Shown here piece by piece: positions 47,091 to 64,000 of a DNA stretch of 64,000 nucleotides (position 1 is the first letter of the stretch; every line of letters begins with the position of its first letter). The notes beneath the pieces were generated by a model. It saw only the letters and a program-made list of their open reading frames with translations. It was not told where the DNA came from and ran no database searches. Source of the stretch: Companilactobacillus formosensis (GTDB taxonomy: Bacteria; Bacillota; Bacilli; Lactobacillales; Lactobacillaceae); the NCBI RefSeq assembly GCF_005405305.1, contig NZ_BJDU01000002.1, positions 1-64,000 of the forward strand. Direction: 5' to 3'. The translations under genes and the position numbers were made by a program.

Positions 47091-47158
47091 TTAAAAAGCA
47101 ATCTTTGAAGTATACTTTATTTGTAGAGTAAATGTATTTCAGGGAGAGGATTTATATT

Positions 47159-47464
47159 ATGGCAAAAACAATCATGTTGGCATGTGCTGGAGGGATGTCA
47201 ACCTCATTATTGGTAACGAAGATGGAAAAAGCAGCAGCGAAAAGAAACATTGATGTAACGATATTCGCGACTGCGGGTTCAGCCATTCCAGACGAATGTA
47301 AAAAATACAATCCTGATGTTATTTTGTTAGGTCCTCAAATTCAATATCTATTTAAATTAGTTACTAAGGAAGTTGATGTGCCTGTTGCTGTAATTGATAT
47401 GAAGGATTTTGGAACTATGAATGGGGAAAAGGTTCTTGATCTGGGATTGTCGATGCTGGATTGA
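47159..47464 (+). CDS. PTS EIIB, lactose/cellobiose family
   Basis: A 101-residue phosphocarrier. The phosphorylated cysteine lies in IMLACAGGMSTSLLV (Cys8), and the rest (KKYNPDVILLGPQIQYLF) is typical of cellobiose-type IIB. AGGGAGAGG lies upstream of ATG 47159; the ATG at 47132 has no such site. It is isolated: a GH1 gene remnant precedes it, EIIA is missing and an EIIC of the same family lies 4 kb upstream. Whether it still works in transport is open. Confidence 0.88.
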   Translation: MAKTIMLACAGGMSTSLLVTKMEKAAAKRNIDVTIFATAGSAIPDECKKYNPDVILLGPQIQYLFKLVTKEVDVPVAVIDMKDFGTMNGEKVLDLGLSMLD

Positions 47465-47641: not shown

Positions 47642-48532
47642 CTAACGATTAGGATTATTTTTTGAATTAAATAATTGCTTTCTGAATTTTGAGGGAGTCA
47701 TTTGATATCTTTGATAGAATTCTTTTCTAAATTGATGATATGTTGTGAATCCACAATTATACATTATCTGAAGTATTTCTTTATTCGTATGTCTCAATTC
47801 ATTCTCAACATGTTTCATTCTTATATTGGTTAAATAGTTGTAAAAATTTACTCCCATTTGATTTTTAAAGAAATGTGAAAAATATGTAGTTGAAAGGTGG
47901 ACGTAATTTGAAACTTCACTTAATGTTATTTGATTTGAGTAATTATTTTCAATATATCCAATTACTTTACTGATTCTTCGATGATATTTAGTTTCTCTTT
48001 TTGCGCTTTGAGAAGAAATTTGGAATGAAAAATTATTCATGAGTAGATAAATGAGATCAAACAAATAAGAAAGGCAAAGTAAATAGGCGTCCTTGTCATT
48101 TTTAGCATTTAAAATTGTATTTATTGAGGAAATATCTTTTTTTAAATTTTCAATTTTGGGATTATCATTATTTATCACAAATTTGTATTTTGGGAAATCA
48201 GGAATGAAATTTATGAGAAAATCGTAGGAAATTTGTAATATATAGTTTTTTGTGTGTTGAGATGAACTTGAGGTCGAATGAATAGAATTAGAATTAACAA
48301 GATAAACGTTGCCTGAATGAAGTTCATTTAAGAGTGTTCCGTCAAAAACGTTAATATTACCCTCCAGGATATAAATTATTTCTATATCATCATGATAATG
48401 TGGAACAATATATGAATCTTTGATGGATTTAGGATGCTGGTCACTTAGATAAATTTTGAATGGAACATCGGGCATAAGATTTATCAATTCATGTTCGGCA
48501 ATATTTGATTGTAATTCATTTTTCTTTTGCAT
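47642..48532 (-). CDS. AraC family regulator, module 1
   Basis: 296 residues. An N-terminal cupin sensor (about 25-110: IVPHYHDDIEIIYILEGNINVFDG) and a C-terminal double helix-turn-helix (about 195-290: ITLSEVSNYVHLSTTYFSHFFKN, then ILQIMYNCGFTTYHQFRKEFYQRYQMTPSKFR). GAGG precedes ATG 48532. It is divergent from the MFS-GH43-GH78 operon, the usual layout for a local sugar-responsive activator. It is a paralogue of the regulator at 52610, sharing the cupin and DNA-binding patterns. The inducer is inferred to be a plant-derived glycoside or its sugar. Confidence 0.88.
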   Translation of the reverse strand: MQKKNELQSNIAEHELINLMPDVPFKIYLSDQHPKSIKDSYIVPHYHDDIEIIYILEGNINVFDGTLLNELHSGNVYLVNSNSIHSTSSSSQHTKNYILQISYDFLINFIPDFPKYKFVINNDNPKIENLKKDISSINTILNAKNDKDAYLLCLSYLFDLIYLLMNNFSFQISSQSAKRETKYHRRISKVIGYIENNYSNQITLSEVSNYVHLSTTYFSHFFKNQMGVNFYNYLTNIRMKHVENELRHTNKEILQIMYNCGFTTYHQFRKEFYQRYQMTPSKFRKQLFNSKNNPNR

Positions 48533-48654
48533 TTTATCCTCACTGTGTTAAGTATATTCGTAAAAGTCATCTGAAATCATAAAAAGCAATATAAGTATAA
48601 TATTGCGGCAACTAAATAACTAATTATTTTATATACAAATGATAACATTAATAA

Positions 48655-48669
48655 CTGTAAGCGGTAACA
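48655..48669. promoter_or_regulatory. cre site upstream of module 1 operon
   Basis: CTGTAAGCGGTAACA matches the cre consensus at all positions but the first. It is 50 bases before the MFS start, so glucose repression through CcpA is expected. Confidence 0.65.
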
Positions 48670-48677
48670 ACTTACAA

Positions 48678-48697
48678 ATGTATTAGGCCTAATACAT
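48678..48697. promoter_or_regulatory. 20-bp perfect palindrome before module 1 MFS gene
   Basis: ATGTATTAGGCCTAATACAT is an exact dyad 21 bases before the MFS ATG, between the cre site and the ribosome site. It could be an operator near the transcription start or an RNA hairpin. Confidence 0.55.
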
Positions 48698-48718
48698 AAC
48701 TATCAAAGGGGCACGAAT

Positions 48719-49909
48719 ATGACAAAAGATAAACATAGTTTTTTATTTAAAGCCTCAATCCTTGGAATTTCTATCGATACGACAGCTGCAGGTGTTATTT
48801 CTGGAGCAATACCGGTAATCAGACAGAGTTTCCCAGATGTGGCTTCATCACTTATTGAATCTATCACAACTTTACCAAGTTTAGCTATTCTGATTTTTGT
48901 TGCAATAAGTCCTTTAGTTACAAAAAAAATCGGTTATAAGAACACCGCATCCTTGGGATTATTGATTTCATTTATATCTGGCATTTTTCCAGTATTTATG
49001 AATAGTATCTATGCAATCCTTGTTTGCAGATTTTTGTTTGGAGCAGGTATCGGACTACTAAATCCATTGTCCTACAGTATCGTTTCTTACTTCTATGATG
49101 GAGATGAAAGAGCCCAAATGTTTGGATTTATTGGGACAGTTTCTAACTTAGCAAGTACGCTATTAACAATGCTAGCCGGCGTATTATTACAAATAAGTTG
49201 GCGGTTTAGTTTTCTTACTTATTTTATTCTTTTAGTCGTTCTTTTATTGGTAATAACATTTTTGCCAAAAATGGATATTCAACAAGAGAATAAAAAGATA
49301 AGTATAATGAAAAATTTGAGGAGATTGAATCTAAAAACATATTCCTTCTTCATATCGATGTTTTTCATGCAATTTATCTTTATGACATTGATGACTAAAT
49401 TAGCTTTATTAATAACAAATGCTGGCTATGGATCTGCAACATCAGCTAGTTTCATATTAAGCTTTACATCCCTAACAGGAATGATTGTTGTTGTTTTGTT
49501 CGGTAAAGTACATCAAATATTAGGTACAAAGATGTTTCCATTATTTATATTGATTTTGAGTGCAAGTAGTATTTTGATTACACAATCCAATAACCTACTT
49601 TTGACAGGAATTTTGGTTATCGTAATGGCTGCATCATTTACTTTCCTATCTCCATATATGTTTCTTAGAGTTTCTGAATTATGTCCTAAAGATTTGACTA
49701 ATTTTTGTAATTCATTAGCTTTGGTATTCATCAATATAAGTGTGTTTTTGACACCCTATATTCAACAAGGAATTGGAACAATCATTGGAATTCAAACTCC
49801 AGTAGCATCATTAATAATAAGTGGTGTTGTAGGTATTGCCGTTTTAATCATTGTTCTTTTAAATATGTTTCAAGCAAAAGAAAATTCACTAAAAAATAAA
49901 TTAAATTAA
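48719..49909 (+). CDS. MFS transporter, module 1
   Basis: A 396-residue permease with twelve membrane helices. It shares a distinctive start with the transporter at 57133 (HSF-FKASIL-I-ID-T-GV-SGAIP) and the later GFGIGLLNPLSYSIV-type block (FGAGIGLLNPLSYSIVSYFYDGDERAQM). It is the first gene of the operon with GH43 and GH78 hydrolases, so it is the likely importer of the glycoside they cleave; this is inferred from context. AAAGGGG precedes the ATG. Confidence 0.82.
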   Translation: MTKDKHSFLFKASILGISIDTTAAGVISGAIPVIRQSFPDVASSLIESITTLPSLAILIFVAISPLVTKKIGYKNTASLGLLISFISGIFPVFMNSIYAILVCRFLFGAGIGLLNPLSYSIVSYFYDGDERAQMFGFIGTVSNLASTLLTMLAGVLLQISWRFSFLTYFILLVVLLLVITFLPKMDIQQENKKISIMKNLRRLNLKTYSFFISMFFMQFIFMTLMTKLALLITNAGYGSATSASFILSFTSLTGMIVVVLFGKVHQILGTKMFPLFILILSASSILITQSNNLLLTGILVIVMAASFTFLSPYMFLRVSELCPKDLTNFCNSLALVFINISVFLTPYIQQGIGTIIGIQTPVASLIISGVVGIAVLIIVLLNMFQAKENSLKNKLN

Positions 49910-49922
49910 GAGGGGTATTATT

Positions 49923-50966
49923 ATGTATAATTCATTTCGTCCAGGTCAAGTTTGGTTAGATACAGATGGTAATAGAATCCAAGCACATGGTGGTTCTGTC
50001 ATGTATATTGATGGGACATATTACTGGTATGGTGAAAACAAGGAAAAATCAAATGGAAAAAATGGAATTTGGCAATGGGGAGTACGTTGTTATAGTTCGC
50101 AAGATTTATATAATTGGAAGAGTGAAGGAATTATTATTCCTGCTAATACAGATGATCCTGAATCACCATTCTATTATAAAAATCAAATGGATCGTCCACA
50201 CATTATTTACAATGAGAAAACTAAGAAATATGTTTGCTGGGTAAAAGTAATGCACAAAGATGATACTCAAACAGAAACAGTTTTGACCGCTGATAGTATT
50301 TTAGGACCATATACGATTGTTAATGAAAATATTTCTCCATTAGGCATGAGTGCAGGTGACTTTGATTTAGCTGTTGCTCCGGATGGAAAAGGTTATTATT
50401 ACTTTGAAAGAGTTCATTCAGAAACGATTTGTGCAGACTTAACCGAAGATTACACGGATTTAACTGGTTACTATACAACTCACTTCCCACATAAGTTTCC
50501 ACCTTATGTTCGTGAAGCCACAGCTCATTTTGTACGTAACTATAAACATTATTTACTTACATCTGGTACAACGGGTTATTTCCCAAGTCCATCAGAAGTT
50601 GCAATTGCTGACACATGGCATGGTCCGTATACAGTTTTAGGCAATCCAAGTCCACAAGATACAACTAAGACTTCATATTATTCACAAGTAACATCAGTAT
50701 TCAAAGTGCAAGGCAAAAAGGACTTATATATTGCTTGTCAAGATAGATGGTTGCCTAATGAGATGAATAGAAAATATGAAGATTACGCAAAAACATTCGA
50801 ACAATTCTTTAATCCTGAAATGAAAGATACTAGACCAGATAATCTAGATGATGTCGTTGTAGCAAATACATCAATTGCTGACTATGTATGGTTACCAATT
50901 AGATTTGTTGGAGATAGACCATATATTGATTGGCATGATGAATGGTCATTGGATGATTATGAATAA
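49923..50966 (+). CDS. GH43-like glycosidase, module 1
   Basis: A 347-residue five-bladed beta-propeller glycosidase. The start FRPGQVWLDTDGNRIQAHGGSVMY and DGTYYWYGENKE are typical of a GH43 branch that includes exo-beta-galactanase-like enzymes. Likely acidic residues lie in DTDGN, SAGDFDLAV and VREATAHF. There is no signal peptide, so it acts inside the cell. GAGGGG precedes the ATG; it follows the MFS gene by 13 bases. Its sugar specificity (arabinose, xylose or galactose) is unresolved. Confidence 0.78.
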   Translation: MYNSFRPGQVWLDTDGNRIQAHGGSVMYIDGTYYWYGENKEKSNGKNGIWQWGVRCYSSQDLYNWKSEGIIIPANTDDPESPFYYKNQMDRPHIIYNEKTKKYVCWVKVMHKDDTQTETVLTADSILGPYTIVNENISPLGMSAGDFDLAVAPDGKGYYYFERVHSETICADLTEDYTDLTGYYTTHFPHKFPPYVREATAHFVRNYKHYLLTSGTTGYFPSPSEVAIADTWHGPYTVLGNPSPQDTTKTSYYSQVTSVFKVQGKKDLYIACQDRWLPNEMNRKYEDYAKTFEQFFNPEMKDTRPDNLDDVVVANTSIADYVWLPIRFVGDRPYIDWHDEWSLDDYE

Positions 50967-50990
50967 CAATTAGTTTTAATAAAAAGTTTG

Positions 50991-51025
50991 AGTAGTGATT
51001 TTAATATTAAATCACTACTTTTTTT
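50991..51025 (+). terminator. Internal terminator between GH43 and GH78 genes
   Basis: AGTAGTGATTT, loop TAATATT, AAATCACTACT, then six more T. It precedes the GH78 ribosome site by a few bases and should reduce GH78 expression relative to the first two genes. Confidence 0.75.
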
Positions 51026-51037
51026 GAAGGTGTTGTA

Positions 51038-52606
51038 ATGGGATTCAAATTTCAAATAAATAAAGATACAGAGTTTAAAAGAAATGAACAATATTTAAGT
51101 ATTGCTAAAAAAAATGATCCGATTATTTATTATAGTAAGCATAAACCTCAAAAATATATTGACGGGGAAAAATATACACAAAATATTAATGAAGATGCTG
51201 CTAATAGTGAAACGGATTTATTAACTAAAGAATTTACTAGGGATGATTCTGTGATTTTGGATTTTGGAAATCATTATGTTGGTCATTTCTCAATTGATAT
51301 AAAAAAAACAGGAGCGCCAATGGATGCACCCCTAACTTTAAAAATTCAATTTGCTGAGAATTATGATGAATTATCCTACAAACCAGAGGAATATAAGGGA
51401 TGGTTATCTAAATCCTGGATTCCAATAGAAGTGCTGCACATAGATAGTTTGCCTAGCACATTAAAAATGTCCAGACGATATAGTTTTAGATATGTAAAAA
51501 TGACTGTAATTGATACATCACCAAAATGGAAGGTCCAATTTGAAAATCCATTAGTAATATCTCAAAGTGCCATTTCTGGAAAAGATTATTCGGATGCCTT
51601 AATACATAATGATGATTCAATGTTAGAAAAAATTGAAAATGTAAGTATAAAAACACTTTCCGAATGCATGCAATCTGTATTTGAAGATGGAACTAAAAGA
51701 GATCAAAGATTATGGCTAGGCGATTTACACTTACAAGCTTTAGTAAATTATTCAACATTTAATAAAAATAATTTGGTAAAAAAATGTCTGTATCTATTTG
51801 CAGGTTTAGCGACTTCAAACGGAAAATTATGTGCAAATATATTTACTAATAAAGAAGCAATTCCAGATGATACTTTTTTGTTTGACTATAGTTTATTTTT
51901 TGTAAGTACTTTAAAGGATTATTTTGAACGTACTAGTGACGTTTATACCGCTAGAGAATTGTATATCACTTCTAAGAGACAAGTGGATTTAGCATTAAAT
52001 CTTGTTGATCAATCCGGCAAATTATCATTGCCGTCAGACTGGCCCGCTTTTATTGATTGGAATGATAATTTCAACAAAGAAACGGCCGCACAAGCTGTAT
52101 TAATATACGTTTTAAGGGACTTTATATATTTAAGTAAAGAATTGGAAATGGATATTTCGGCTAATTATGAATATATGCTAAGGTCATTAGTTAACTATGC
52201 TCAAACCGAATTATTTAACGAATCAAATAATCAATTCATTTCTGGCAAAAACAATGAAATAAATATTTATAGTCAGATTTGGATGATTCTTGCCAATGTT
52301 TTTGATAAAGAAAAGTCTAAATCTATTATGGAGAGTACAGTAAAAGCCTTTTTCCCAATAAAAAATATTGCAACCCCATATATGTATCATTTTGTTGCTG
52401 AAGCATTACTAAGCGTAGGTATGAAGGAGGAAGCGATATCGTTAATTAAGGGTTACTGGGGCTCCATGATAAAAAAAGGGGCAGATACGTTCTGGGAAGC
52501 CTATAAACCTGATGATCCTGGTTATTCCCCTTACGGAAGCCCATTAGTAAATAGCTATTGTCATGCTTGGTCGTGCACCCCCCGTTTATTTGATAAAAAA
52601 ATATAA
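51038..52606 (+). CDS. GH78 alpha-L-rhamnosidase, module 1, altered C-terminus
   Basis: A 522-residue cytoplasmic enzyme of the short GH78 form found in lactic acid bacteria: an N-terminal beta domain (about 1-190) and an alpha/alpha-six barrel. The catalytic block is EDGTKRDQRLWLGD and a second acid lies in ADTFWEAYKPDDPG. The gene ends SCTPRLFDKKI because of a C6 run at 52578-52583; the paralogue at 58323 has C5 and ends SCTPVYLIKKYNL. Without the extra C this gene would run to the same ending, stop at 52611-52613. Activity of the altered form is uncertain. Confidence 0.82.
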   Translation: MGFKFQINKDTEFKRNEQYLSIAKKNDPIIYYSKHKPQKYIDGEKYTQNINEDAANSETDLLTKEFTRDDSVILDFGNHYVGHFSIDIKKTGAPMDAPLTLKIQFAENYDELSYKPEEYKGWLSKSWIPIEVLHIDSLPSTLKMSRRYSFRYVKMTVIDTSPKWKVQFENPLVISQSAISGKDYSDALIHNDDSMLEKIENVSIKTLSECMQSVFEDGTKRDQRLWLGDLHLQALVNYSTFNKNNLVKKCLYLFAGLATSNGKLCANIFTNKEAIPDDTFLFDYSLFFVSTLKDYFERTSDVYTARELYITSKRQVDLALNLVDQSGKLSLPSDWPAFIDWNDNFNKETAAQAVLIYVLRDFIYLSKELEMDISANYEYMLRSLVNYAQTELFNESNNQFISGKNNEINIYSQIWMILANVFDKEKSKSIMESTVKAFFPIKNIATPYMYHFVAEALLSVGMKEEAISLIKGYWGSMIKKGADTFWEAYKPDDPGYSPYGSPLVNSYCHAWSCTPRLFDKKI

Positions 52607-52613
52607 TCTTTAA
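52490..52613 (+). repeat. GH78 3' block, near-identical to 59757-59879
   Basis: The last 124 bases match the second GH78 gene except for three substitutions and one extra C, although the genes are clearly diverged elsewhere. Silent positions and the old stop codon are included, suggesting gene conversion or recent exchange. Confidence 0.8.
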
Positions 52614-53449
52614 TTCTTTTGTCGTATTCGACTGGGTAAACAACCAAATCTATTTTTAAATTCTTTGTTGAACTGGGCATAGTTAGCAAATCCAGTTTGT
52701 TCCGCAATTTGTAATATTTGAAGATCAGTGGTTGTTATCAGTGTTTGTGCGTGATTTAAACGAACACTTGTTAAATATCTATAAAAAGACATACCATAAT
52801 TTTTACTAATGAATCTGGATAAATATTCTGGATTCAAATGAACTTGTTTTGATAATGTTGTTAATGTAATTGTATTTGCATAGTTTTGCTCAATGTAGTT
52901 ATTTATTTTAAAAATTCTTTTATAATATTTTTGATTTGATTGCACACTTTTAGTAGATATTCTTTCACTAAAGTCACTAAATAGTATATTGAGTAGGTAC
53001 ATTAAATCCCCATATATTTTAAAAAAGTCGAATTTTTTTTCGCATTCGGATTTGAGAAGCAGTGATTTCATTAGATGAATCACTGCTTCCTTTTTATTTT
53101 CTGAACCCTTAGAAAAATAAAACTTATAGTAAGCAGCATCCGGAACAAGATTTTTAATTAAATCAAAGGAAATTTGCAAAATAATTCCCTTTAATAAATC
53201 TCCGTCAAATTTAGTAGAATGAACATCATTTGAATTAAAGATATGAAATTCTCCAGCCTGTAGTATTGAAAAATTTGAAGAATCCATAATTTGAAGATTT
53301 CCATGAGATATGTATATTATTTCGATTGCTTCATGCATATGAGGAATTATCATTGATTTTCCTTGATCATATCCTCGAAAAATTCGTATTGGAACGTGTT
53401 TATCAAATGGTATATTTTCTCTTATTTTCGAATGTAATTCTAATTTCAT
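52610..53449 (-). CDS. AraC family regulator, module 2
   Basis: 279 residues with the cupin sensor (IIPHMHEAIEIIYISHGNLQIMD) and C-terminal AraC DNA-binding domain (ITLTTLSKQVHLNPEYLSRFISK, then ILQIAEQTGFANYAQFNKEFKNRFGCLPSRIR). It is a paralogue of the module 1 regulator. ATG 53449 has GGAGG five bases upstream; the extension to 53470 covers the ribosome site. It is divergent from GH43-GH3-MFS-GH78. Its stop codon overlaps the ancestral stop of the convergent GH78 gene. Confidence 0.88.
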   Translation of the reverse strand: MKLELHSKIRENIPFDKHVPIRIFRGYDQGKSMIIPHMHEAIEIIYISHGNLQIMDSSNFSILQAGEFHIFNSNDVHSTKFDGDLLKGIILQISFDLIKNLVPDAAYYKFYFSKGSENKKEAVIHLMKSLLLKSECEKKFDFFKIYGDLMYLLNILFSDFSERISTKSVQSNQKYYKRIFKINNYIEQNYANTITLTTLSKQVHLNPEYLSRFISKNYGMSFYRYLTSVRLNHAQTLITTTDLQILQIAEQTGFANYAQFNKEFKNRFGCLPSRIRQKN

Positions 53450-53521
53450 TATTTCCTCCAAAATATACAAAAGTCAAAATAACTAAACTTTCACGTTAAG
53501 ATATTATCTAATTTCAATCGT

Positions 53522-53536
53522 AGTATGCGCTTACAA
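53522..53536 (-). promoter_or_regulatory. cre site upstream of module 2 operon
   Basis: On the minus strand TTGTAAGCGCATACT matches the cre consensus except at the last base. It lies 42 bases before the GH43 start and next to a 10-base palindrome TACAATTGTA (53532-53541). Confidence 0.6.
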
Positions 53537-53577
53537 TTGTACTTGTTTGAAGGTATTAATTGCAAGGAGTGAATAGT

Positions 53578-54870
53578 TTGAATCCAATATTGAAGTCAAA
53601 TAATTATATTCCGGATGTTGAAGCTAGAACGATGCCAAATGGCAGAGTGTATTTATACGGCTCTAATGATAATCCGGGAGATACAGAATTTTGTAGTACA
53701 CAGTACAAAACGTTTTCATCCGATGATTTAATTCATTGGAAAAATCACGGTGTCATTTTTGACAGTGTAAGTGATAAATACGGTTTAAAAAATGGACTTA
53801 CATTAGGCGCACCCGATTGCGTTTATTATGAGGGAAAATATTATTTGTATTATTGCATGTATGGAAATCGTATGGGTGTAGCAGTTTCAGAATCGCCTTC
53901 AGGACCGTTTAAAAACTTAGGTCATGTAACTCCAGCGGATAATCAGAGTATTGATCCTGCAATATTTGTTGATGACGACGGTAGTTGTTATTACTTTTGG
54001 GGTCAGTTCCATCTGCAAGGTGGAAAACTAGATAAGGATATGAAAACTGTTATCCCAGATACAATCAATTCAAATATATTAACAGAGCATGAACAGGGCT
54101 TTCATGAGGGTGCATCGGTTAGAAAAATTAATGGAAAATATTATTTAACATATACATGCATTTCTCGTGGTAGAGCAACGTGTTTAGCATATGCCATGGC
54201 AGATAAACCACTTGGACCATATGTCAAGCAAGGAATCATCATTGATAATACGGGAAGTGATTCTGAAGATTGGAATAATCATGGATCAATCGAGATGTTT
54301 GATAATAAACTTTATGTCTTTTACCATCGTTCAAGTCAAAACAGCATATATAACAGAAGAGTATGCATTGAACCACTAGAAATGGATAATAAAGGAAATA
54401 TTAAGGAAGTTTCCATGACGACAAACGGTGTCGAACCGTATATTTCTTCGGATAGATGGATCAATGTTAGACATTTATCCAGAATGAGACTCAAATTGCC
54501 ATTTAATAGCTTAATACGGCCAATGACTTTGATGCCATATGGTGATGAGGAAGTTCTTTCATATACCAAGAATCAAGACTGGATACAATTCGACAAAATA
54601 AATCTGAGCAATTGTAAAAGTATGGAAATATCTGTCGCTTCACCAAAACCGATGGATATAGAGATTTGGATTGAAGGTAATGAAAAAATAGGAAAAGTTA
54701 CTGTAAACCCTACTGGAAATGATTGGAGTAAATTTGAAAAATTCACTGGCAATATAAAATCGGTCTCAGGTATACACACCGTTTGGTTGAAAATGATTGC
54801 AAGAAATCATGCGGTTGGAAGATTAGGTGATATTAAAGATTTTCGTTTTAAGGAGATAAAGAATGCTTAA
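53578..54870 (+). CDS. GH43 glycosidase with C-terminal carbohydrate-binding-like domain
   Basis: 430 residues. The propeller (about 1-310) begins YIPDVEARTMPNGRVYLYGSNDNPG, with further acidic motifs GAPDCVYYEGKYYLYYC and FHEGASVRKINGKYYLTY, typical of GH43 arabinofuranosidase/xylosidase enzymes. Residues about 330-430 resemble a CBM6-like beta-sandwich (SVASPKPMDIEIWIEG, KSVSGIHTVWLKMIA). No signal peptide. Start TTG 53578 has AAGGAG eight bases upstream. It is first in the module 2 operon and overlaps the GH3 gene by 8 bases. Confidence 0.82.
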   Translation: MNPILKSNNYIPDVEARTMPNGRVYLYGSNDNPGDTEFCSTQYKTFSSDDLIHWKNHGVIFDSVSDKYGLKNGLTLGAPDCVYYEGKYYLYYCMYGNRMGVAVSESPSGPFKNLGHVTPADNQSIDPAIFVDDDGSCYYFWGQFHLQGGKLDKDMKTVIPDTINSNILTEHEQGFHEGASVRKINGKYYLTYTCISRGRATCLAYAMADKPLGPYVKQGIIIDNTGSDSEDWNNHGSIEMFDNKLYVFYHRSSQNSIYNRRVCIEPLEMDNKGNIKEVSMTTNGVEPYISSDRWINVRHLSRMRLKLPFNSLIRPMTLMPYGDEEVLSYTKNQDWIQFDKINLSNCKSMEISVASPKPMDIEIWIEGNEKIGKVTVNPTGNDWSKFEKFTGNIKSVSGIHTVWLKMIARNHAVGRLGDIKDFRFKEIKNA

Positions 54871-57130: not shown

Positions 57131-57132
57131 AA

Positions 57133-58323
57133 ATGCAAAAAATAAAAAATAAACATAGTTTTTGGTTTAAGGCATCAATATTGTCTATTGCTATTGATTC
57201 CACTGTTTCTGGTGTTGTGTCAGGTGCCATTCCATTAATGGTTAAATCCTTTCCAAATGCGCCACAATCTATTGTTGAATCTATTTCATCATTACCAAGT
57301 TTAGCAATTATGCTTGCTGTCATGATTAGTCCATTTGTAACAACGAAAATTGGATATAAGAAAACAGTATTAATTGGATTATTTATTTCATTTCTAGCAG
57401 GTATCGCACCTGCATTTGCTCCAAATATTTGTTTGATTTTAGCATTTAGATTAATATTTGGATTTGGTATTGGATTATTGAACCCTCTTTCATATAGTAT
57501 CGTTGCATACTTCTATGAAGGAGACGAGCGCTCTTCAATGTATGGATTAATTGGAACCGTTTCAAATTTAGCATCATGGATTTTAACAGGATTAGTTGGT
57601 GTTTTATTGCAATATAGTTGGCACTATAGTTTCTTAACATACTTTGTATTATTAGCAATCTTGATTCTTGTTTACTTTGTACTTCCTGAAATGGATATCA
57701 AAACAGAAAAGACAAGTAGTAGTAAAGCAAACTTTTTACAAATGGATCATAGAGTATATTATTTGGCTGTTGTAATGTTCTTCTTATTTATGGTTTGGAT
57801 GACATTTAATCAAAAATTTGGATTATTAGTAACAGGTAAACAATTTGGTAATGCCTCACAAGCAACATATATTTTGAGTTTAACCGCACCAATTGGAATG
57901 ATTGTGGGTGTAGCATTTGGACTATTACATAAATGGTTGAAAAATTCATTATTACCTATTGCTATGATTGTTTTGGCAATTGCTTTTGCCTTAACATCCT
58001 ATGCTAACAGCTTATTTATGGCTGGAGCAGGAGTTGTATTAGCTGCCATTTCATTTACATGTTGTTCTACATCAATCTTTTTAAGAGTATCTGAAATTAC
58101 ACCAAAAGAACTAAATAACGCAGCATCGTCTATTGAATTAATTGTTACGAATATTGGTATTTTTGTTGCTCCTTACTTCATGAGTATGATTGGTTCATTT
58201 ATGGGAAATAGTGAATCAGACACTATGCTAAAAGTCTGTGCTGTTATTTTAATTGCTATGGCTGCGGTAATGCTAGTCGGAGGACTTTTCTACAGAAGTA
58301 AAACTACACAACAGGAGGCATAA
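57133..58323 (+). CDS. MFS transporter, module 2
   Basis: A 396-residue, twelve-helix permease paralogous to that at 48719 and of the same length (KHSFWFKASILSIAIDSTVSGVVSGAIP, GFGIGLLNPLSYSIVAYFYEGDERSSM). It is separated from GH3 by 2 bases and its stop shares a base with the following GH78 start, so it is tightly coupled in the operon. The likely role is import of the glycoside or oligosaccharide cleaved by the neighbouring cytoplasmic hydrolases; this is inferred from context. Confidence 0.82.
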   Translation: MQKIKNKHSFWFKASILSIAIDSTVSGVVSGAIPLMVKSFPNAPQSIVESISSLPSLAIMLAVMISPFVTTKIGYKKTVLIGLFISFLAGIAPAFAPNICLILAFRLIFGFGIGLLNPLSYSIVAYFYEGDERSSMYGLIGTVSNLASWILTGLVGVLLQYSWHYSFLTYFVLLAILILVYFVLPEMDIKTEKTSSSKANFLQMDHRVYYLAVVMFFLFMVWMTFNQKFGLLVTGKQFGNASQATYILSLTAPIGMIVGVAFGLLHKWLKNSLLPIAMIVLAIAFALTSYANSLFMAGAGVVLAAISFTCCSTSIFLRVSEITPKELNNAASSIELIVTNIGIFVAPYFMSMIGSFMGNSESDTMLKVCAVILIAMAAVMLVGGLFYRSKTTQQEA

Positions 58324-59879
58324 TGGTGTCTTTTAAATTTCAAATTAATGATAATGTTACTTTTAAACGAAACAATAAATTCTTATCAATTGCTAGAGAA
58401 TGTAAACCTGAACTATACTATCGGCAATATTTTTCAAAGGGATTTAAAAAGTTTGATAAGAAAACGGGAAAACTTGTTAAATATGATGAATTAGAGTCTA
58501 AAGAATTTGGAAAAGACGGTTACTTCATTTTAGATTTTGAGAATCATTTTGTGGGACATTTTTCAATTGATATTAATCGTATTGGGTCAATGATGGATGC
58601 TCCTCTAACTTTAAAAATACAATTTGCAGAAATGGTAGAAGAATTAAACCATGATTCATCGAAATACAACGGATGGTTGTCTAGCTCATGGATTCCTGAA
58701 GAAAAAATTCATATAGACGAATTGCCATATGAATTAAAGTTACCCAGAAGATATAGCTTTAGATATGTGAAAGTGACCATAGTAGATACATCCCCAAAGT
58801 GGAAAGTCTATTTTAAAAATCCAAGAGTGGTTTCTGAAAGTGCAGTGGATGAAAACAACATGCCATCTGTAAATACAGATGATAAAGAATTAAAAAAAAT
58901 AAGTGATATAAGTGTAAAAACGTTAGCTGAGTGTATGCAGGACGTATTTGAGGATGGCCCAAAAAGAGATCAAAGGTTATGGCTTGGAGATTTACATTTA
59001 CAAGCGTTAGTCAACTATGAGACTTTTAAAAATTATGATTTGGTCAAACGATGCTTATATTTATTTGCTGGAATGACGTCAAGTGATGGTAAACTGAGTG
59101 CTAACATATTTACGCATAATCAATTAAATGCAGATGATACTTTCTTGTTTGATTACAGTCTATTTTTTGTAAGTTCTCTTAGGGACTACTTTGTCAATTC
59201 TAAAGATATAGAAACAGTAAGAGACTTATATCCGATTGCTAAAAAACAAATTGAGCTAGCAGCTAATTACGTTTCAAAAAATGGGAAACTATCATTGCCA
59301 GAGGATTGGCCTGTATTTGTAGATTGGGGTAATGAATTAGACAGAAGTACTGCTGCTCAAGGTATATTTATTAGGGTTCTAAAAGATTTTAAGGAATTAG
59401 ATAGAATGTTAAAAATTGAAACTGAAGAAAAATATGTTGAGCTATTAGATAAGATGATTTCTTATTCAAAAGAGTGTTTGTATAAAAAGGACCAAGAAAC
59501 ATTTATTTCTGGATCTCAATCTGAAATAAATATATATAGTCAAGTATGGATGGTATTAGCCGATATATTGCCGTCTAATGAAAATTTTGACGTAATGAAG
59601 CAAACTTATAAAAGTATGTTTCCAATAAAGAATATTTCAACTCCATATATGTATCACTTTGTTGTTGAAGCATTATTAAGTGTAGGTATGAAAGAGGAAG
59701 CAATATCACTAATTAAGGATTACTGGGGTTCCATGATAGAAAAAGGAGCAGATACATTCTGGGAAGCCTATAAGCCTGATGATCCTAGTTATTCCCCTTA
59801 CGGAAGTCCATTAGTAAATAGCTATTGTCATGCTTGGTCGTGCACCCCCGTTTATTTGATAAAAAAATATAATCTTTAA
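58323..59879 (+). CDS. GH78 alpha-L-rhamnosidase, module 2
   Basis: A 518-residue short-form GH78 enzyme: N-terminal beta domain, then the alpha/alpha barrel with EDGPKRDQRLWLGD and ADTFWEAYKPDDPS. It ends HAWSCTPVYLIKKYNL, the intact barrel end, with a C5 run at 59845-59849. It releases terminal alpha-L-rhamnose in the cytoplasm. ATG 58323 uses the A of the preceding TAA and has AGGAGG upstream. A strong terminator follows. It is a paralogue of the gene at 51038. Confidence 0.86.
   Translation: MVSFKFQINDNVTFKRNNKFLSIARECKPELYYRQYFSKGFKKFDKKTGKLVKYDELESKEFGKDGYFILDFENHFVGHFSIDINRIGSMMDAPLTLKIQFAEMVEELNHDSSKYNGWLSSSWIPEEKIHIDELPYELKLPRRYSFRYVKVTIVDTSPKWKVYFKNPRVVSESAVDENNMPSVNTDDKELKKISDISVKTLAECMQDVFEDGPKRDQRLWLGDLHLQALVNYETFKNYDLVKRCLYLFAGMTSSDGKLSANIFTHNQLNADDTFLFDYSLFFVSSLRDYFVNSKDIETVRDLYPIAKKQIELAANYVSKNGKLSLPEDWPVFVDWGNELDRSTAAQGIFIRVLKDFKELDRMLKIETEEKYVELLDKMISYSKECLYKKDQETFISGSQSEINIYSQVWMVLADILPSNENFDVMKQTYKSMFPIKNISTPYMYHFVVEALLSVGMKEEAISLIKDYWGSMIEKGADTFWEAYKPDDPSYSPYGSPLVNSYCHAWSCTPVYLIKKYNL
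59757..59879 (+). repeat. GH78 3' block, partner of 52490-52613
   Basis: Second copy of the near-identical 3' block, carrying C5 (59845-59849) where the first copy has C6. Confidence 0.8.
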
Positions 59880-59890
59880 CGAGTAAAAAG

Positions 59891-59943
59891 AAAAAGATTC
59901 CAAATTGCCAATTTGATTTTTAGCAATTTTGGAATCTTTTTTT
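59891..59943. terminator. Terminator of module 2 operon
   Basis: AAAAAGATTCCAAATTGC pairs with GCAATTTTGGAATCTTTTT (one bulge), symmetrical A and T runs; convergent with the module 3 regulator. Confidence 0.85.
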
Positions 59944-60913
59944 AGTCATTTCGTTCATCTCCAGGAAGAGAATGATAATATTCCTTATATTTTTTATAAA
60001 AACTTGTTCTGTTCTTCATACCAACATTTTCAATTATTTCAGATATTGGCATAGTCGTAGATGATATTAGATTGTGTGCTTGAATTAAGCGTTTATCGAC
60101 TACCAAGGTACCGAATGTTTTACCTGTTTCCTTCTTTATGAAGTTACTTAAATAATTTCTATTATAGCCTAGCTGTTTTGCAATTTTGCTGAGTGTGATG
60201 GTGGCGTAGTTACTGTCTATCTCTTTTAGAATTTTAATTACTAAGAGTTGTGTATGATTATTTTTTTTCATAGGGACATGATAATGGCGAACCAGTTTGG
60301 TTAATAGGATTTGTAAATAGTTTGTAATTATAGAATTTGAGAATTCTTTTTTTGAATAATATTCGGTGATTATATCTTCCATCGTGTATCGAATATCGTT
60401 ATCAATATTATTTTTAAAAATAATGTAGTCCGTAGAGTCATGATCGTTAGATTTTTGATTTAAAAGAAAGTCATATAGCACCGAATTACTTCTTCTCATA
60501 TTGTCGAGAAAATTAATATCAATGGATTTATCCCTGAATAATAGGTTTATTAAGATATCATTTTCGTTTAATTTTCCTACAGAATGTGAACAACCAACAT
60601 CAATAAGTAAAAGATCTCCTTGATTAAGATGAACGGGAACACCATCAACAATCTGTTCGCATGTTCCATTTAGCATATAGTTAATTTCAAGAAATTGATG
60701 TGAATGTGTAGGGTAGGGGGCAAATCTAGGGTGCTTACTAATATAAACATCCCTGTTTCTAAAGAAATAATTATTAAGAACCTTTTGTTCTGGAGCCACA
60801 GAATCTTTATAAAGCGCCTCACTTGGTATATCAACAATGTGTTTTCCAGTCTTTAATTGTTCTTTTTCTATTAACTCGTGTTGCTTCAAACGTATTAATA
60901 TGCGTGGATTCAT
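59942..60913 (-). CDS. AraC family regulator, module 3 (probable rhamnose regulator)
   Basis: 323 residues. Cupin sensor (about 60-150: FAPYPTHSHQFLEINYMLNGTCEQIVDG, LLLIDVGCSHSVG) and AraC-type DNA-binding domain (about 225-320: ITLSKIAKQLGYNRNYLSNFIKKETG, ISEIIENVGMKNRTSFYKKYKEYYHSLPGD). ATG 60913 has AGGAGGG upstream; the extension to 60970 is rejected. It is more distant from the regulators of modules 1 and 2. Divergence from the transporter-rhaB-rhaM genes suggests it responds to L-rhamnose or a catabolite. Confidence 0.86.
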   Translation of the reverse strand: MNPRILIRLKQHELIEKEQLKTGKHIVDIPSEALYKDSVAPEQKVLNNYFFRNRDVYISKHPRFAPYPTHSHQFLEINYMLNGTCEQIVDGVPVHLNQGDLLLIDVGCSHSVGKLNENDILINLLFRDKSIDINFLDNMRRSNSVLYDFLLNQKSNDHDSTDYIIFKNNIDNDIRYTMEDIITEYYSKKEFSNSIITNYLQILLTKLVRHYHVPMKKNNHTQLLVIKILKEIDSNYATITLSKIAKQLGYNRNYLSNFIKKETGKTFGTLVVDKRLIQAHNLISSTTMPISEIIENVGMKNRTSFYKKYKEYYHSLPGDERND

Positions 60914-60973
60914 TGGGATACCCTCCTGTATTTTTGTTACAAAATAACTGAACAATTGATATTGTAGCACTTT

Positions 60974-60988
60974 ATGTAAGCGGTTAAT
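60974..60988. promoter_or_regulatory. cre-like site upstream of rhamnose operon, copy 1
   Basis: ATGTAAGCGGTTAAT matches the cre consensus except at the last two positions. It lies in the divergent spacer between the AraC gene and the MFS gene. Confidence 0.45.
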
Positions 60989-61005
60989 ATAGCACTTGTA
61001 ATCAA

Positions 61006-61020
61006 TGTTAGCGCTTTCTA
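61006..61020 (-). promoter_or_regulatory. cre site upstream of rhamnose operon, copy 2
   Basis: On the minus strand TAGAAAGCGCTAACA differs from the cre consensus at one position. It is 22 bases before the MFS start. Confidence 0.5.
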
Positions 61021-61042
61021 AAAAGGAATGTGAGGTGTACTT

Positions 61043-62362
61043 ATGAGTAGTAGTTCAAAAAATGGTTCATTGAAATCAACATTTGCTGTTTCATTAACAA
61101 ACTTTCTTGATTCAGGAAGTATTGTTGCCGGAGCAAGTGGTTTGACTCTATGGACAAGTCATTTTGGACTTAATAGTTTTCAAGTTGGATTACTTGGAGC
61201 CTTAAGTGCAAATGCTTTTGGTGCCGCTATTGGTGCTTTGTTTGGAGGTCATTTATCAGATAAATATGGCCGTAAAATTATTTATACATACGATATGTTG
61301 GTCTATATGTTGGGGACTTTGATCGTAGCATTAGCCGCTAATTTCCCAATGCTGTTAATAGGATTTACTATTACAGGAATTGCGGTTGGTGCAGGTGTTC
61401 CAGCATCATGGACTTATATTTCAGAAACATCTAGTGATAATGCTAGAGCAAAGAATATTGGTATTTCACAATTTGCTTGGTCTTTAGGGCCAGCATTGAT
61501 ATTCATTCTAGCCGTTATTGTGTCACCGCTAAAGTTATTAGGAAATAGAATCTTATTTGGAATTTTATTTATTGTTTCATTTATTGCATGGAACTTACAA
61601 AAGAATCTTCATGAATCTGAAGATTGGGAAAAGCAAAAAGCTCGAGAAAAGATGACTGGTGTTAAGCCACATCCTTATAAAGATTTGTTCTCGAATGTAG
61701 TAAATATTAAGACTTTGTTGTTCTTAATTGGAGTTTATATGTTCTGGAATCTAGTTGCAGGAGCAATGGGATTCTTCATGCCATATGTTTATGAAACAGC
61801 AGGTGGGCTTACGAACATGCAAGCTAACCTATTACAAGCTATTTTATGGATATTTACTTCACTAGCAACGTATTTTGGATTTGCAAAATATGGCGATAAA
61901 GTAAATCACAGAATTTTCTTCTTTGTTGGTGCAGCAATGAGTGCAGCATCATGGATTGTATTAACGTTTATGGGTATGAGTTGGACAAGCCTTTGGTTGT
62001 TCGTGATCCTTTGGGGTGTTTCCGCCGGAATTGGTGCTCAAGCATGGTACTCATTGTGGTCAACGGAACTATTCCCAACAAAATATCGTGCTGGATCACA
62101 AGGTGTTATTTTTTTTGTTGTACGTGCTTCAGCCGGTATTTGGTTGATTGTCTTTCCAACAATTCTATCAACGATGGGATTCAAGGCCGCCGGTATGTTT
62201 ATGATTGGCTTATTGATTGTTTCATGGGTCATCGGAACAGTTTGGACACCTCAAACTCGTGGTAAATCATTGGATGAAATAACTAATGAACGTTATCACG
62301 TTGGTAGAAATTCAGGGATTCAAAATATTAAAGAAAATACAAGTAGTGGAAAAGAGGCATAA
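61043..62362 (+). CDS. MFS sugar transporter, module 3 (probable L-rhamnose importer)
   Basis: A 439-residue, twelve-helix sugar-porter-like permease: GGHLSDKYGRKIIYTYD (loop 2-3 motif), the SWTYISETSSDNARAKNIG block, and LFPTKYRAGSQGV in the second half. It differs from the paired transporters of modules 1 and 2. It is 2 bases upstream of rhaB, so L-rhamnose (or a rhamnoside) is the likely substrate, inferred from context. GAGG precedes the ATG. Confidence 0.85.
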   Translation: MSSSSKNGSLKSTFAVSLTNFLDSGSIVAGASGLTLWTSHFGLNSFQVGLLGALSANAFGAAIGALFGGHLSDKYGRKIIYTYDMLVYMLGTLIVALAANFPMLLIGFTITGIAVGAGVPASWTYISETSSDNARAKNIGISQFAWSLGPALIFILAVIVSPLKLLGNRILFGILFIVSFIAWNLQKNLHESEDWEKQKAREKMTGVKPHPYKDLFSNVVNIKTLLFLIGVYMFWNLVAGAMGFFMPYVYETAGGLTNMQANLLQAILWIFTSLATYFGFAKYGDKVNHRIFFFVGAAMSAASWIVLTFMGMSWTSLWLFVILWGVSAGIGAQAWYSLWSTELFPTKYRAGSQGVIFFVVRASAGIWLIVFPTILSTMGFKAAGMFMIGLLIVSWVIGTVWTPQTRGKSLDEITNERYHVGRNSGIQNIKENTSSGKEA

Positions 62363-62364
62363 AG

Positions 62365-63837
62365 ATGACTAAAACTTATGTTGCAGTTGACATTGGAGCT
62401 TCTAGTGGTCGATTGATGCTTGGGACTATCAAGCACAAGAAATTACAACTAAAAGAAATGTATCGATTTAAAAATGGTTTCACTATGAAAAACGGCCACG
62501 ACCGATGGAATATTGATTCAATAATCAACGAAATATTTAAAGGTTTGGAAGAAGTGAAAGCCGCTGGATTCGATGATATTGAATTAGGAATTGATACATG
62601 GGCAGTAGATTATGTTCTTGTTGGTATGGATGGAGAAAAAATTCAAGATCCTATTAGTTATAGGGATGCAAGAACAAAAAATGCGATGAATGAATTAACA
62701 TCCGATTTGCCAAAGAGCTACATTTATAAAAAAACTGGGATTCAATTCTTAAACTTTAATACGTTGTATCAATTATATGAAGAGAGTAAAGACGATCTAG
62801 AGAAGACCGATAAGATCATGATGATTCCGGATTATATTGGCTATGTATTAACAGGAAATGCAGTTACTGAAGTAACAAATGCTTCAACGACGCAGATGTT
62901 GAATTTGAGAGAAGGTCTTTTCGATAAGAACTTACTCAATAAAGTTAATGTTTCTCAAGATCAATTCCCACGGTTGGTAGAGTCAGGGACTATATTAGGA
63001 AATATTCGCCATAAATGGCATATGAAATATGATCTTCCTGAAACTGAAGTCGTAACTGTTGCGACTCATGATACAGCATCTGCCGTATTAGGAGCGCCAG
63101 GAGAAAATGATAGATGGGCTTATCTAAGTTCAGGAACATGGTCATTATTGGGTACTGAATTAAATGTCCCTGAGAATGGAGAAATGGCGTTTAAAGAGAA
63201 CTATACAAATGAATGGGGAGCCTATGGTACTTATAGGTTCTTGAAGAACATCATGGGTCTTTGGATGATTCAATGTGTAAAGAAAGAATTAGATAATAAA
63301 TATTCGTTCTCAGAATTAGCAGAGATGGCTAGTGAAGTAAAACCGTTTGAACAATACATAAATATTAATGATGAAAGATTTACAAATCCGGACAGTATGA
63401 TCAATGCAATTCAGTCGTACTGTAGAGAGACTGATCAGAAAGTACCTGAAACTCCTGGAGAAATTTCAATGGCTATATATTCTAATCTAGCTTTATATTA
63501 TGCAAATGAAATTCAAAAATTGGATAAAATTTTAGGTTATAAGTTGGAATCACTCAATATTGTTGGCGGTGGATCTAATGTTACATTGTTAAATCAGTTA
63601 ACTAGTACCTTATCAAATATTGATGTTTATGCGGGCCCAGGAGAAGCAACAGCAATTGGTAATTTAATGGTACAAATGATTACTAAAAATGATGTAACTA
63701 ATATTTCCGAAGGTCGAAATATGATTCGTAACTCATTTGAAATCAAAAAATTTAGACCTGAAACCGACAAATTTGGAGATGTTTTAAAGGATTATCAAGA
63801 ATTTTTGGAACACGGAGAGAAGGCGACTGTTCAGTGA
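62365..63837 (+). CDS. rhaB: Rhamnulokinase
   Basis: A 490-residue FGGY-family kinase that phosphorylates L-rhamnulose to L-rhamnulose-1-phosphate. Features are AVDIGASSGRLMLG (phosphate loop), GIDTWAVDYVLVGMDG (substrate and catalytic Asp region), the ATHDTASAVLGAP and YLSSGTWSLLGTE blocks, and LNIVGGGSNVTLLNQLTS (adenosine motif). AAAGAGG precedes the ATG. It is coupled to the rhaM start by overlap. rhaA (isomerase) and rhaD (aldolase) are expected beyond the window. Confidence 0.94.
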   Translation: MTKTYVAVDIGASSGRLMLGTIKHKKLQLKEMYRFKNGFTMKNGHDRWNIDSIINEIFKGLEEVKAAGFDDIELGIDTWAVDYVLVGMDGEKIQDPISYRDARTKNAMNELTSDLPKSYIYKKTGIQFLNFNTLYQLYEESKDDLEKTDKIMMIPDYIGYVLTGNAVTEVTNASTTQMLNLREGLFDKNLLNKVNVSQDQFPRLVESGTILGNIRHKWHMKYDLPETEVVTVATHDTASAVLGAPGENDRWAYLSSGTWSLLGTELNVPENGEMAFKENYTNEWGAYGTYRFLKNIMGLWMIQCVKKELDNKYSFSELAEMASEVKPFEQYININDERFTNPDSMINAIQSYCRETDQKVPETPGEISMAIYSNLALYYANEIQKLDKILGYKLESLNIVGGGSNVTLLNQLTSTLSNIDVYAGPGEATAIGNLMVQMITKNDVTNISEGRNMIRNSFEIKKFRPETDKFGDVLKDYQEFLEHGEKATVQ

Positions 63838-64000
63838 AAAGATTAGCTCAGATCATGTACTTACATAAGGATTCTTATGCCGAATACGCCAAAAGACATA
63901 ACAATCTTTTTCCAGAGATGCGTAAAGCATTAAAGGAGGCAGGTGCACATAACTATTCAATATATCTTAATAAAGATAATGGAGAATTATTCGCCTACCT
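63834..64000 (+). CDS. rhaM: L-rhamnose mutarotase (partial, cut by window end)
   Basis: Fifty-five codons are visible from GTG 63834, which overlaps the rhaB TGA. The translation shows RHNNLFPEMRKALKEAGAHN, then YSIYLNKDNGELFAY, matching RhaM (E. coli: RHNPIWPE, GAHNYAIYLD, LLFA), including the catalytic histidine region. It interconverts rhamnose anomers for the isomerase. GAGAAGG lies upstream. The gene continues beyond the window. Confidence 0.9.
   Translation, partial: MKRLAQIMYLHKDSYAEYAKRHNNLFPEMRKALKEAGAHNYSIYLNKDNGELFAY

Follow-up and report, generated by a model that had tools for sequence, protein, structure and literature searches.

In Lactiplantibacillus plantarum, genes for major facilitator superfamily (MFS) permeases are interleaved with genes for glycoside hydrolase family 78 (GH78) rhamnosidases in the locus rhaP2B2P1B1 (Avila 2009), which a review describes as inducible and glucose-repressed (PMC13298368). 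The L-rhamnose regulons of Lactobacillales (Rodionova 2013, PMC3870299) combine the RhaA/RhaB/RhaD/RhaM pathway with an AraC-type regulator. Here, we report on a locus sharing features with both, located in Companilactobacillus formosensis at the right-hand end of a window of 64,000 nucleotides (contig C2, NZ_BJDU01000002.1, positions 1–64000; host genome 2.47 Mb). In this locus, AraC1 is divergent from MFS1–GH43a–GH78a (module 1), AraC2 from GH43b–GH3–MFS2–GH78b (module 2), and AraC3 from MFS3–rhaB–rhaM (module 3). Profile searches and open reading frames (ORFs) confirmed every gene named in an earlier prediction from the sequence (the original prediction) in place, order, and orientation (Table 1). 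We propose, with a probability of roughly 0.6, that the region is a rhamnoside-utilization island, built from separate mobile cassettes, that imports and dismantles small rhamnosylated plant glycosides. The unexpected part of the locus is GH43a, a family 43 glycoside hydrolase belonging to an uncharacterized clade.

Like rhaP2B2P1B1, the cassettes interleave MFS permease genes with GH78 and appear to be under catabolite control. By analogy, they would work as the L. plantarum locus does, except that they include GH43 and GH3 partners and that their permeases appear to come from another family; the general kind of system is already known. The difference in permease family is judged from loci such as L048 (genome G300), which has the rhaP2B2P1B1 gene order, a short GH78 that shares 51% identity with GH78b, and an AraC gene alongside. 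Specifically, GH78-adjoining permeases at loci of this type match MFS3 (26–28%) and not MFS1 or MFS2, the comparison covering the permeases of these loci. A further difference is that here the rha operon and additional GH78 genes lie within the same island. In the passages of PMC3870299 consulted, putative rhamnosidases are placed with ATP-binding cassette (ABC) systems, in Actinomycetales, Bacillales, and others, and MFS–GH43–GH78 cassettes are not among them.

By sequence and by predicted fold, GH43a is nearest to the GH43_24 exo-β-1,3-galactanases (BT3683, BT0265, Pc1,3Gal43A, and Ct1,3Gal43A). Its model (pLDDT 86) has its nine nearest entries at Z 35–39, with the next GH43 group at 27; eight of the nine are titled β-1,3-galactosidase or galactanase, and the ninth, BT_2959, has no titled activity. 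Catalysis in GH43_24 relies on Glu208 as acid and Gln263 as base, with Asp158 modulating the pKa; in the sugar pocket, the axial C4-OH of galactose is recognized by Glu102 and the C6 and C4 groups by Tyr126, with Trp229 serving as a platform (PMC7939473). The residues of the −1 subsite, these last three included, are reported to be fully conserved (PMC7939473). GH43a and 16 relatives form a single clade of 17 members (SH-aLRT 100, stem length 0.98), all of which retain the acid, the Gln base, and the pKa modulator (Glu198, Gln255, and Asp146 in GH43a). The pocket differs. In Pc numbering, Glu102 is replaced by Asp in 16 of 17 members, while Tyr126 is deleted, Arg157 is replaced by Gly, and Trp229 by Tyr in all 17; in contrast, the outgroup rows (40/40, including three solved enzymes) have Glu, Tyr, Arg, and Trp. 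GH43a itself carries Asp90, Gly145, Tyr219, and one deletion in place of the galactose-reading residues. Thus, GH43a has the fold and catalytic residues of GH43_24 and lacks the galactose-reading −1 residues Glu102, Tyr126, and Trp229. It also stands apart from those enzymes in its own long-stem clade, in lacking a signal-like N-terminus, and in its linkage to rhamnosidase genes. Judged from the alignment, the catalytic machine of the clade is that of GH43_24 and the sugar pocket is not. Because the galactose-reading residues are absent, the sugar of GH43a is probably not β-1,3-galactose. The original prediction took the GH43 enzymes to point to galactose or pentose, a view that the pocket of GH43a does not support; GH43b resembles ordinary arabinofuranosidases and xylosidases. 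Among open-licence papers, we found none tying the GH43a clade to rhamnosides, and the clade may already have a CAZy subfamily number. As a separate observation, locus L217 (G775:C33) carries a GH43_24-type domain within a 1441-amino acid open frame.

The genomic company of the clade supplies the second line of evidence. A rhamnosidase gene lies within 1.5 kb at 10/17 GH43a-clade loci and at 0/37 outgroup loci (Fisher 8e-7); linkage was scored in 1.5-kb flanks for all loci. At the other 7/17 clade loci, no rhamnosidase was found within that distance, the only one scored. Nine of the linked loci carry GH78 and one, in Sphingobium, carries GH106; Pfam confirmed the GH106 and several of the linked GH78 genes. 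The linked loci are spread over Lactobacillaceae, a Paenibacillus-like family, Subdoligranulum, and Sphingobium. The p-value is too favorable, since the clade arose once, some of the search queries were taken from these very loci, and the GH78 match at L233 is short. The stronger argument is that two unrelated rhamnosidase families occur beside these genes in different phyla. A GH43a copy on a Deinococcus plasmid (61%) has no rhamnosidase nearby.

GH43a is also exceptionally constrained. It is 97.4% identical to the copy in genome G370 (rank 2 of 165 reciprocal best hits, median 82%) and 97.7% identical to that in G099 (rank 1 of 40, median 44%). Nonsynonymous divergence (dN) is 0.015–0.019 for GH43a, versus 0.319 for GH78a and 0.245–0.306 for AraC1, with synonymous divergence (dS) similarly high. 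Recent transfer was considered as the cause of the 97–98% identity and rejected: silent sites between the copies are nearly saturated, and, where residues are identical, codons are shared at a rate (0.55–0.63) not far above that under independence (0.47–0.50) and like that of RhaD (0.54 versus 0.48). We give about even odds to GH43a representing a specificity new to GH43. In this reading, the enzyme acts in the cytosol, is subject to extreme purifying selection in lactobacilli, and keeps the rare Gln-base machinery of GH43_24 but has exchanged the galactose pocket for one accepting a sugar under or beside rhamnose in plant glycosides. Our guess for that sugar is the α-L-arabinopyranose of Rha-(1→2)-Ara saponins, since it is galactose without C6, and the C6-reading residue is the one deleted.

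The remaining hydrolases fit a cytosolic scheme. The closest solved structure to GH78a is that of KoRha from Klebsiella (4XHC), an exo-acting enzyme that cleaves p-nitrophenyl rhamnoside and rutin, with the Asp of a KRD motif as acid and the Glu of an FWE motif as base. GH78a and GH78b both have GH78_N and 6-hairpin domains above cut-off, and retain the equivalents of KoRha Asp222, Glu486, Trp226, Asp229, and His508. This two-domain architecture of ~520 amino acids is shared with KoRha and with Pediococcus acidilactici Ram, KoRha being the reference for sequence relatedness and catalytic residues. The pair are predicted to be KoRha-type rhamnosidases with intact active sites. The notion that GH78 is inactive, its RDE motif reading RDQ, was rejected, since the corresponding motif of KoRha is RDR and its Asp is the residue used. 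Because the GH78 enzymes are of the KoRha/RhaB2 type with catalytic residues kept, the proposed scheme of import, cytosolic derhamnosylation, and rhamnose catabolism belongs to a known lactobacillar type. Cytosolic rhamnoside use feeding rhamnose catabolism, as first predicted, gains support from these enzymes and from the complete rha operon. The order of cleavage does not: given that KoRha is exo-acting, GH78 should cut first and release of the inner sugar should follow, instead of GH78 acting after stripping by GH43 and GH3. GH43b was rejected as a galactanase, its nearest solved structures (5a8c, 9no3, and 3qed) being of arabinofuranosidase and xylosidase types. GH3 is nearest to BglB, a thermostable β-glucosidase, and scores 673 bits, under the cut-off of 1300, against the exo-α-1,6-L-arabinopyranosidase model NF041610. 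The N-termini of all five hydrolases lack a hydrophobic stretch (the best Kyte–Doolittle mean over 12 residues is 0.05–0.34, versus 1.4–2.0 for the three MFS proteins), which, by hydropathy, bears out the predicted absence of signal peptides.

Modules 1 and 2 are, by sequence, paralogous cassettes (identities of 37% for AraC, 49% for MFS, and 58% for GH78). A tree was built from 55 short GH78 proteins; although its deeper order is unresolved, the seven GH78s of GH43-bearing modules form one clade (SH-aLRT 100) apart from all other lactobacillar short GH78s, and GH78a pairs with the G370 copy (support 96). Module 2 occurs intact, in the same order, in four other genomes: L. plantarum EGD-AQ4 (L011/L085), Candidatus Companilactobacillus pullicola (L012), and the genomes of L084 and L086. 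These have no module 1, which is complete in G370 (L080) and lacks its GH78 in G099. Within each module, the MFS gene is one of the best conserved, at 84–90% identity for MFS1 (G370 and G099) and 78–89% for MFS2 (the four other genomes). More widely, GH78_N genes of this type are present in 46/398 sampled genomes of the family, and many of those viewed adjoin AraC and MFS genes. The original prediction had singled out the three-module layout as the part to test for novelty and suggested comparing it across related genomes. That comparison dissolved it: the modules travel separately, and therefore the three are not a fixed unit. Furthermore, the locus runs on past position 64000, so that the count of three is an effect of the window edge. 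The modules are best read as separate cassettes gathered beside an ordinary rha operon, which is module 3. A plasmid origin of modules 1 and 2 was rejected, with no near match among 72,556 plasmids.

Members of the two permease families also occur in other settings. An apiosidase-like (PF13204) gene lies by an MFS1-family permease and an AraC gene at L012:15545-18107, ~6 kb from module 2 of Candidatus Companilactobacillus pullicola. At L141:7105-10442, an MFS1-family permease (54%) has genes for a GH31 enzyme and a GntP permease beside it. Four genomes of the same genus have an MFS2-family permease with an AraC gene (L142, L143, L145, and L150); in L142 it adjoins an esterase gene in the vicinity of dnaJ and lepA, and L143, L145, and L150 match L142 in ORF sizes, a likeness by size and not by family search. 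Finally, a short GH78 lies between transposase genes, beside pnuC, on a mobilizable L. plantarum plasmid (L155:4800-9328).

The sequence itself shows which genes are present, the paralogy of the cassettes and their independent movement, the retained catalytic residues, the cre-like sites, and the GH43a clade with its rhamnosidase linkage; transport direction, substrates, inducers, and cleavage order are inferred, as follows. Each cassette would pair an AraC regulator of its own with a single MFS permease and between one and three cytosolic exo-glycosidases. The cargo of MFS1 and MFS2 would be small plant glycosides that carry rhamnose and enter intact, either di- or oligoglycosides, whether or not an aglycone is attached. 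The KoRha-type GH78 would strip terminal α-L-rhamnose first, and a module-specific enzyme would then remove the underlying sugar or branch: GH43a in module 1 and, in module 2, GH3 and GH43b, which may take glucose, arabinose, or xylose. Catabolism of the freed L-rhamnose would fall to RhaM-A-B-D, and free rhamnose would enter the cell through MFS3. The two glycoside cassettes would derive from one ancestral AraC–MFS–GH78 set that was duplicated and then given different GH43 partners. CcpA would repress the cassettes through catabolite-responsive element (cre) sites in the promoters. Each divergent promoter contains one cre-like site (3 observed versus 0.18 expected in shuffles), and those of modules 1 and 2 recur in relatives. 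They are relaxed matches only, as the strict cre consensus has no match in the window. A palindrome in the module 1 promoter is a possible operator.

Several observations weigh against this proposal. In G099 (L137), AraC1–MFS1–GH43a is present with no GH78 alongside, and therefore the cargo of MFS1 need not carry rhamnose. A hairpin of 12 pairs followed by a T run parts GH43a from GH78a; G370 has the same structure, in different sequence, at the same position, and G099 has a strong terminator-like hairpin 3' of GH43a. Thus, GH78a may be expressed via read-through and not as a simple operon member: the gene order of the predicted MFS–GH43–GH78 operon holds, and its status as a single operon is doubtful. 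The single origin of the GH43a clade means that its linkage points are not independent. Finally, MFS1 and MFS2 are no closer to any importer than to MFS models of the efflux type. Their best curated matches, multidrug-resistance, Bcr/CflA-type, and generic MFS models, are all far under cut-off, no solved relatives covering the two were found, and sequence assigns both to MFS_1 only; the importer role first predicted draws no support from these matches, and glycoside import by MFS1 and MFS2 is suggested instead by the neighboring genes.

The G099 unit and the hairpin, together with the far greater conservation of GH43a than of GH78a (dN 0.019 versus 0.319), would suit module 1 not being a rhamnoside module, with MFS1–GH43a self-contained for a rhamnose-free substrate and GH78a a chance neighbor. 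We think this unlikely, given that GH43a is linked clade-wide to GH78 or GH106 across several taxa and that GH78a falls in the same clade as GH78b of module 2. Comparably improbable is a system for polysaccharide fragments, in which arabinogalactan, gum-arabic, or rhamnogalacturonan oligosaccharides are imported and GH43a is a cytosolic exo-β-1,3-galactosidase. The closest solved relatives of GH43a have that activity, a GalA-like GH2 β-galactosidase and a further GH43 (GH43c) lie further along the island, and the L012 apiosidase-like gene is near module 2. However, the equivalents of Glu102 (16/17) and of Tyr126, Arg157, and Trp229 (17/17) are altered throughout the clade, the locus has no secreted depolymerase, and the cassettes are served by MFS permeases, not ABC importers. 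Least likely is that MFS1 and MFS2 export toxic aglycones or products while glycosides enter another way: their efflux-type matches and the esterase genes adjoining relatives (L142 and L010) suit such a role, but MFS of the same family adjoin varied cytosolic hydrolases (GH43, GH78, GH31, apiosidase-like, and esterase) with no other importer in the cassette, so that a conjugate importer fits better than an exporter, and the MFS genes are among the most conserved per module.

Table 1. Features of the rhamnoside locus, in window coordinates
Feature	Coordinates	Strand	Sequence	Evidence or remark
AraC1, module 1 regulator	47642..48532	-		HTH_18 E=1e-18; 37% identity to AraC2
Divergent promoter region, module 1	48533..48718	.		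cre-like site and palindrome
cre-like site, module 1 promoter	48656-48669		TGTAAGCGGTAACA	recurs in G370 and G099
Perfect 16-bp palindrome between cre-like site and MFS1 (candidate operator)	48680-48695		GTATTAGGCCTAATAC	core kept in G370 and G099
MFS1 permease	48719..49909	+		MFS_1 E=4e-30; 49% identity to MFS2
GH43a, clade beside GH43_24	49923..50966	+		sequence, tree, residue alignment, predicted fold
Terminator-like hairpin and T run, between GH43a and GH78a	50990..51020	+
GH78a, two-domain KoRha-type α-L-rhamnosidase	51038..52606	+		4xhc E=5e-132; KRD and FWE motifs
AraC2, module 2 regulator	52610..53470	-		HTH_18 E=2e-21; listed start TTG, ATG 7 codons in
Divergent promoter region, module 2	53471..53559	.		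cre-like site
cre-like site, module 2 promoter	53522-53535		AGTATGCGCTTACA	identical in L085 and L012; variant in L084 and L086
GH43b with CBM6, arabinofuranosidase/xylosidase-like	53560..54870	+		GH43 E=4e-43, CBM6 E=3e-13
GH3, β-glucosidase-like or α-L-arabinopyranosidase-like	54863..57130	+		7ms2 BglB E=4e-186
MFS2 permease	57133..58323	+		MFS_1 E=6e-33
GH78b, KoRha-type α-L-rhamnosidase	58323..59879	+		GH78_N E=1e-45, 6-hairpin domain E=8e-19
AraC3, probable RhaR-type regulator of rha operon	59942..60970	-		HTH_18 E=2e-14; listed start GTG
Divergent promoter region, module 3	60971..61042	.		cre-like site
cre-like site, module 3 promoter	61006-61019		TGTTAGCGCTTTCT
MFS3, probable L-rhamnose permease	61043..62362	+		MFS_1 E=2e-34, Sugar_tr E=2e-23; place in rha operon
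rhaB, rhamnulokinase	62365..63837	+		TIGR02627 616 bits, cut-off 528 passed
rhaM, 5' part (window end cuts gene)	63834..64000	+		rhaM E=1.5e-29; gene reaches C2:64148

The island continues beyond the window to about C2:82.6 kb. Directly past rhaM are rhaA (RhaA E=2e-191) and then rhaD (aldolase II E=2e-32; L008), which, by profile searches, complete the catabolic set of rhaB, rhaM, rhaA, and rhaD with an AraC regulator and a permease. The best curated match of that regulator, AraC3, is RhaS (54.5 bits, under cut-off). Past rhaD come a cation-efflux gene, AraC4 divergent from the GH2 gene, a broken GH78, GH43c–GH78c–GH3b, and AraC5–MFS4; from 83 kb, translations indicate an insertion sequence-type transposase and β-glucoside-type phosphotransferase system (PTS) genes. 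The broken GH78 (L008:8374-11000, C2:71374-74000) consists of two overlapping frames of 562 and 334 amino acids, which may be a real frameshift or an assembly error. A separate set, AraC6 with esterase–MFS5–GH78d, lies at C2:303-309 kb. By profile search, the whole genome has six GH78 6-hairpin matches, two of them the halves of the broken gene. The prediction that the region contains no PTS holds inside positions 47642-64000; 177 bp to the left of AraC1, however, is the end of a lone lactose/cellobiose-type PTS IIB gene (47132-47464, +), next to which the ORF list shows neither IIC nor IIA. No Rfam match to a structured RNA was found in the region.

Plant glycosides are a source from which lactic acid bacteria free aroma compounds, flavonoid aglycones, and saponin products, with uptake named as the bottleneck (PMC13298368). 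The MFS family described here, paired with varied cytosolic hydrolases, supplies candidates for glycoside import. The GH43a clade, in turn, offers a test case of how the galactose pocket of GH43_24 may be turned to a new specificity with catalysis left untouched.

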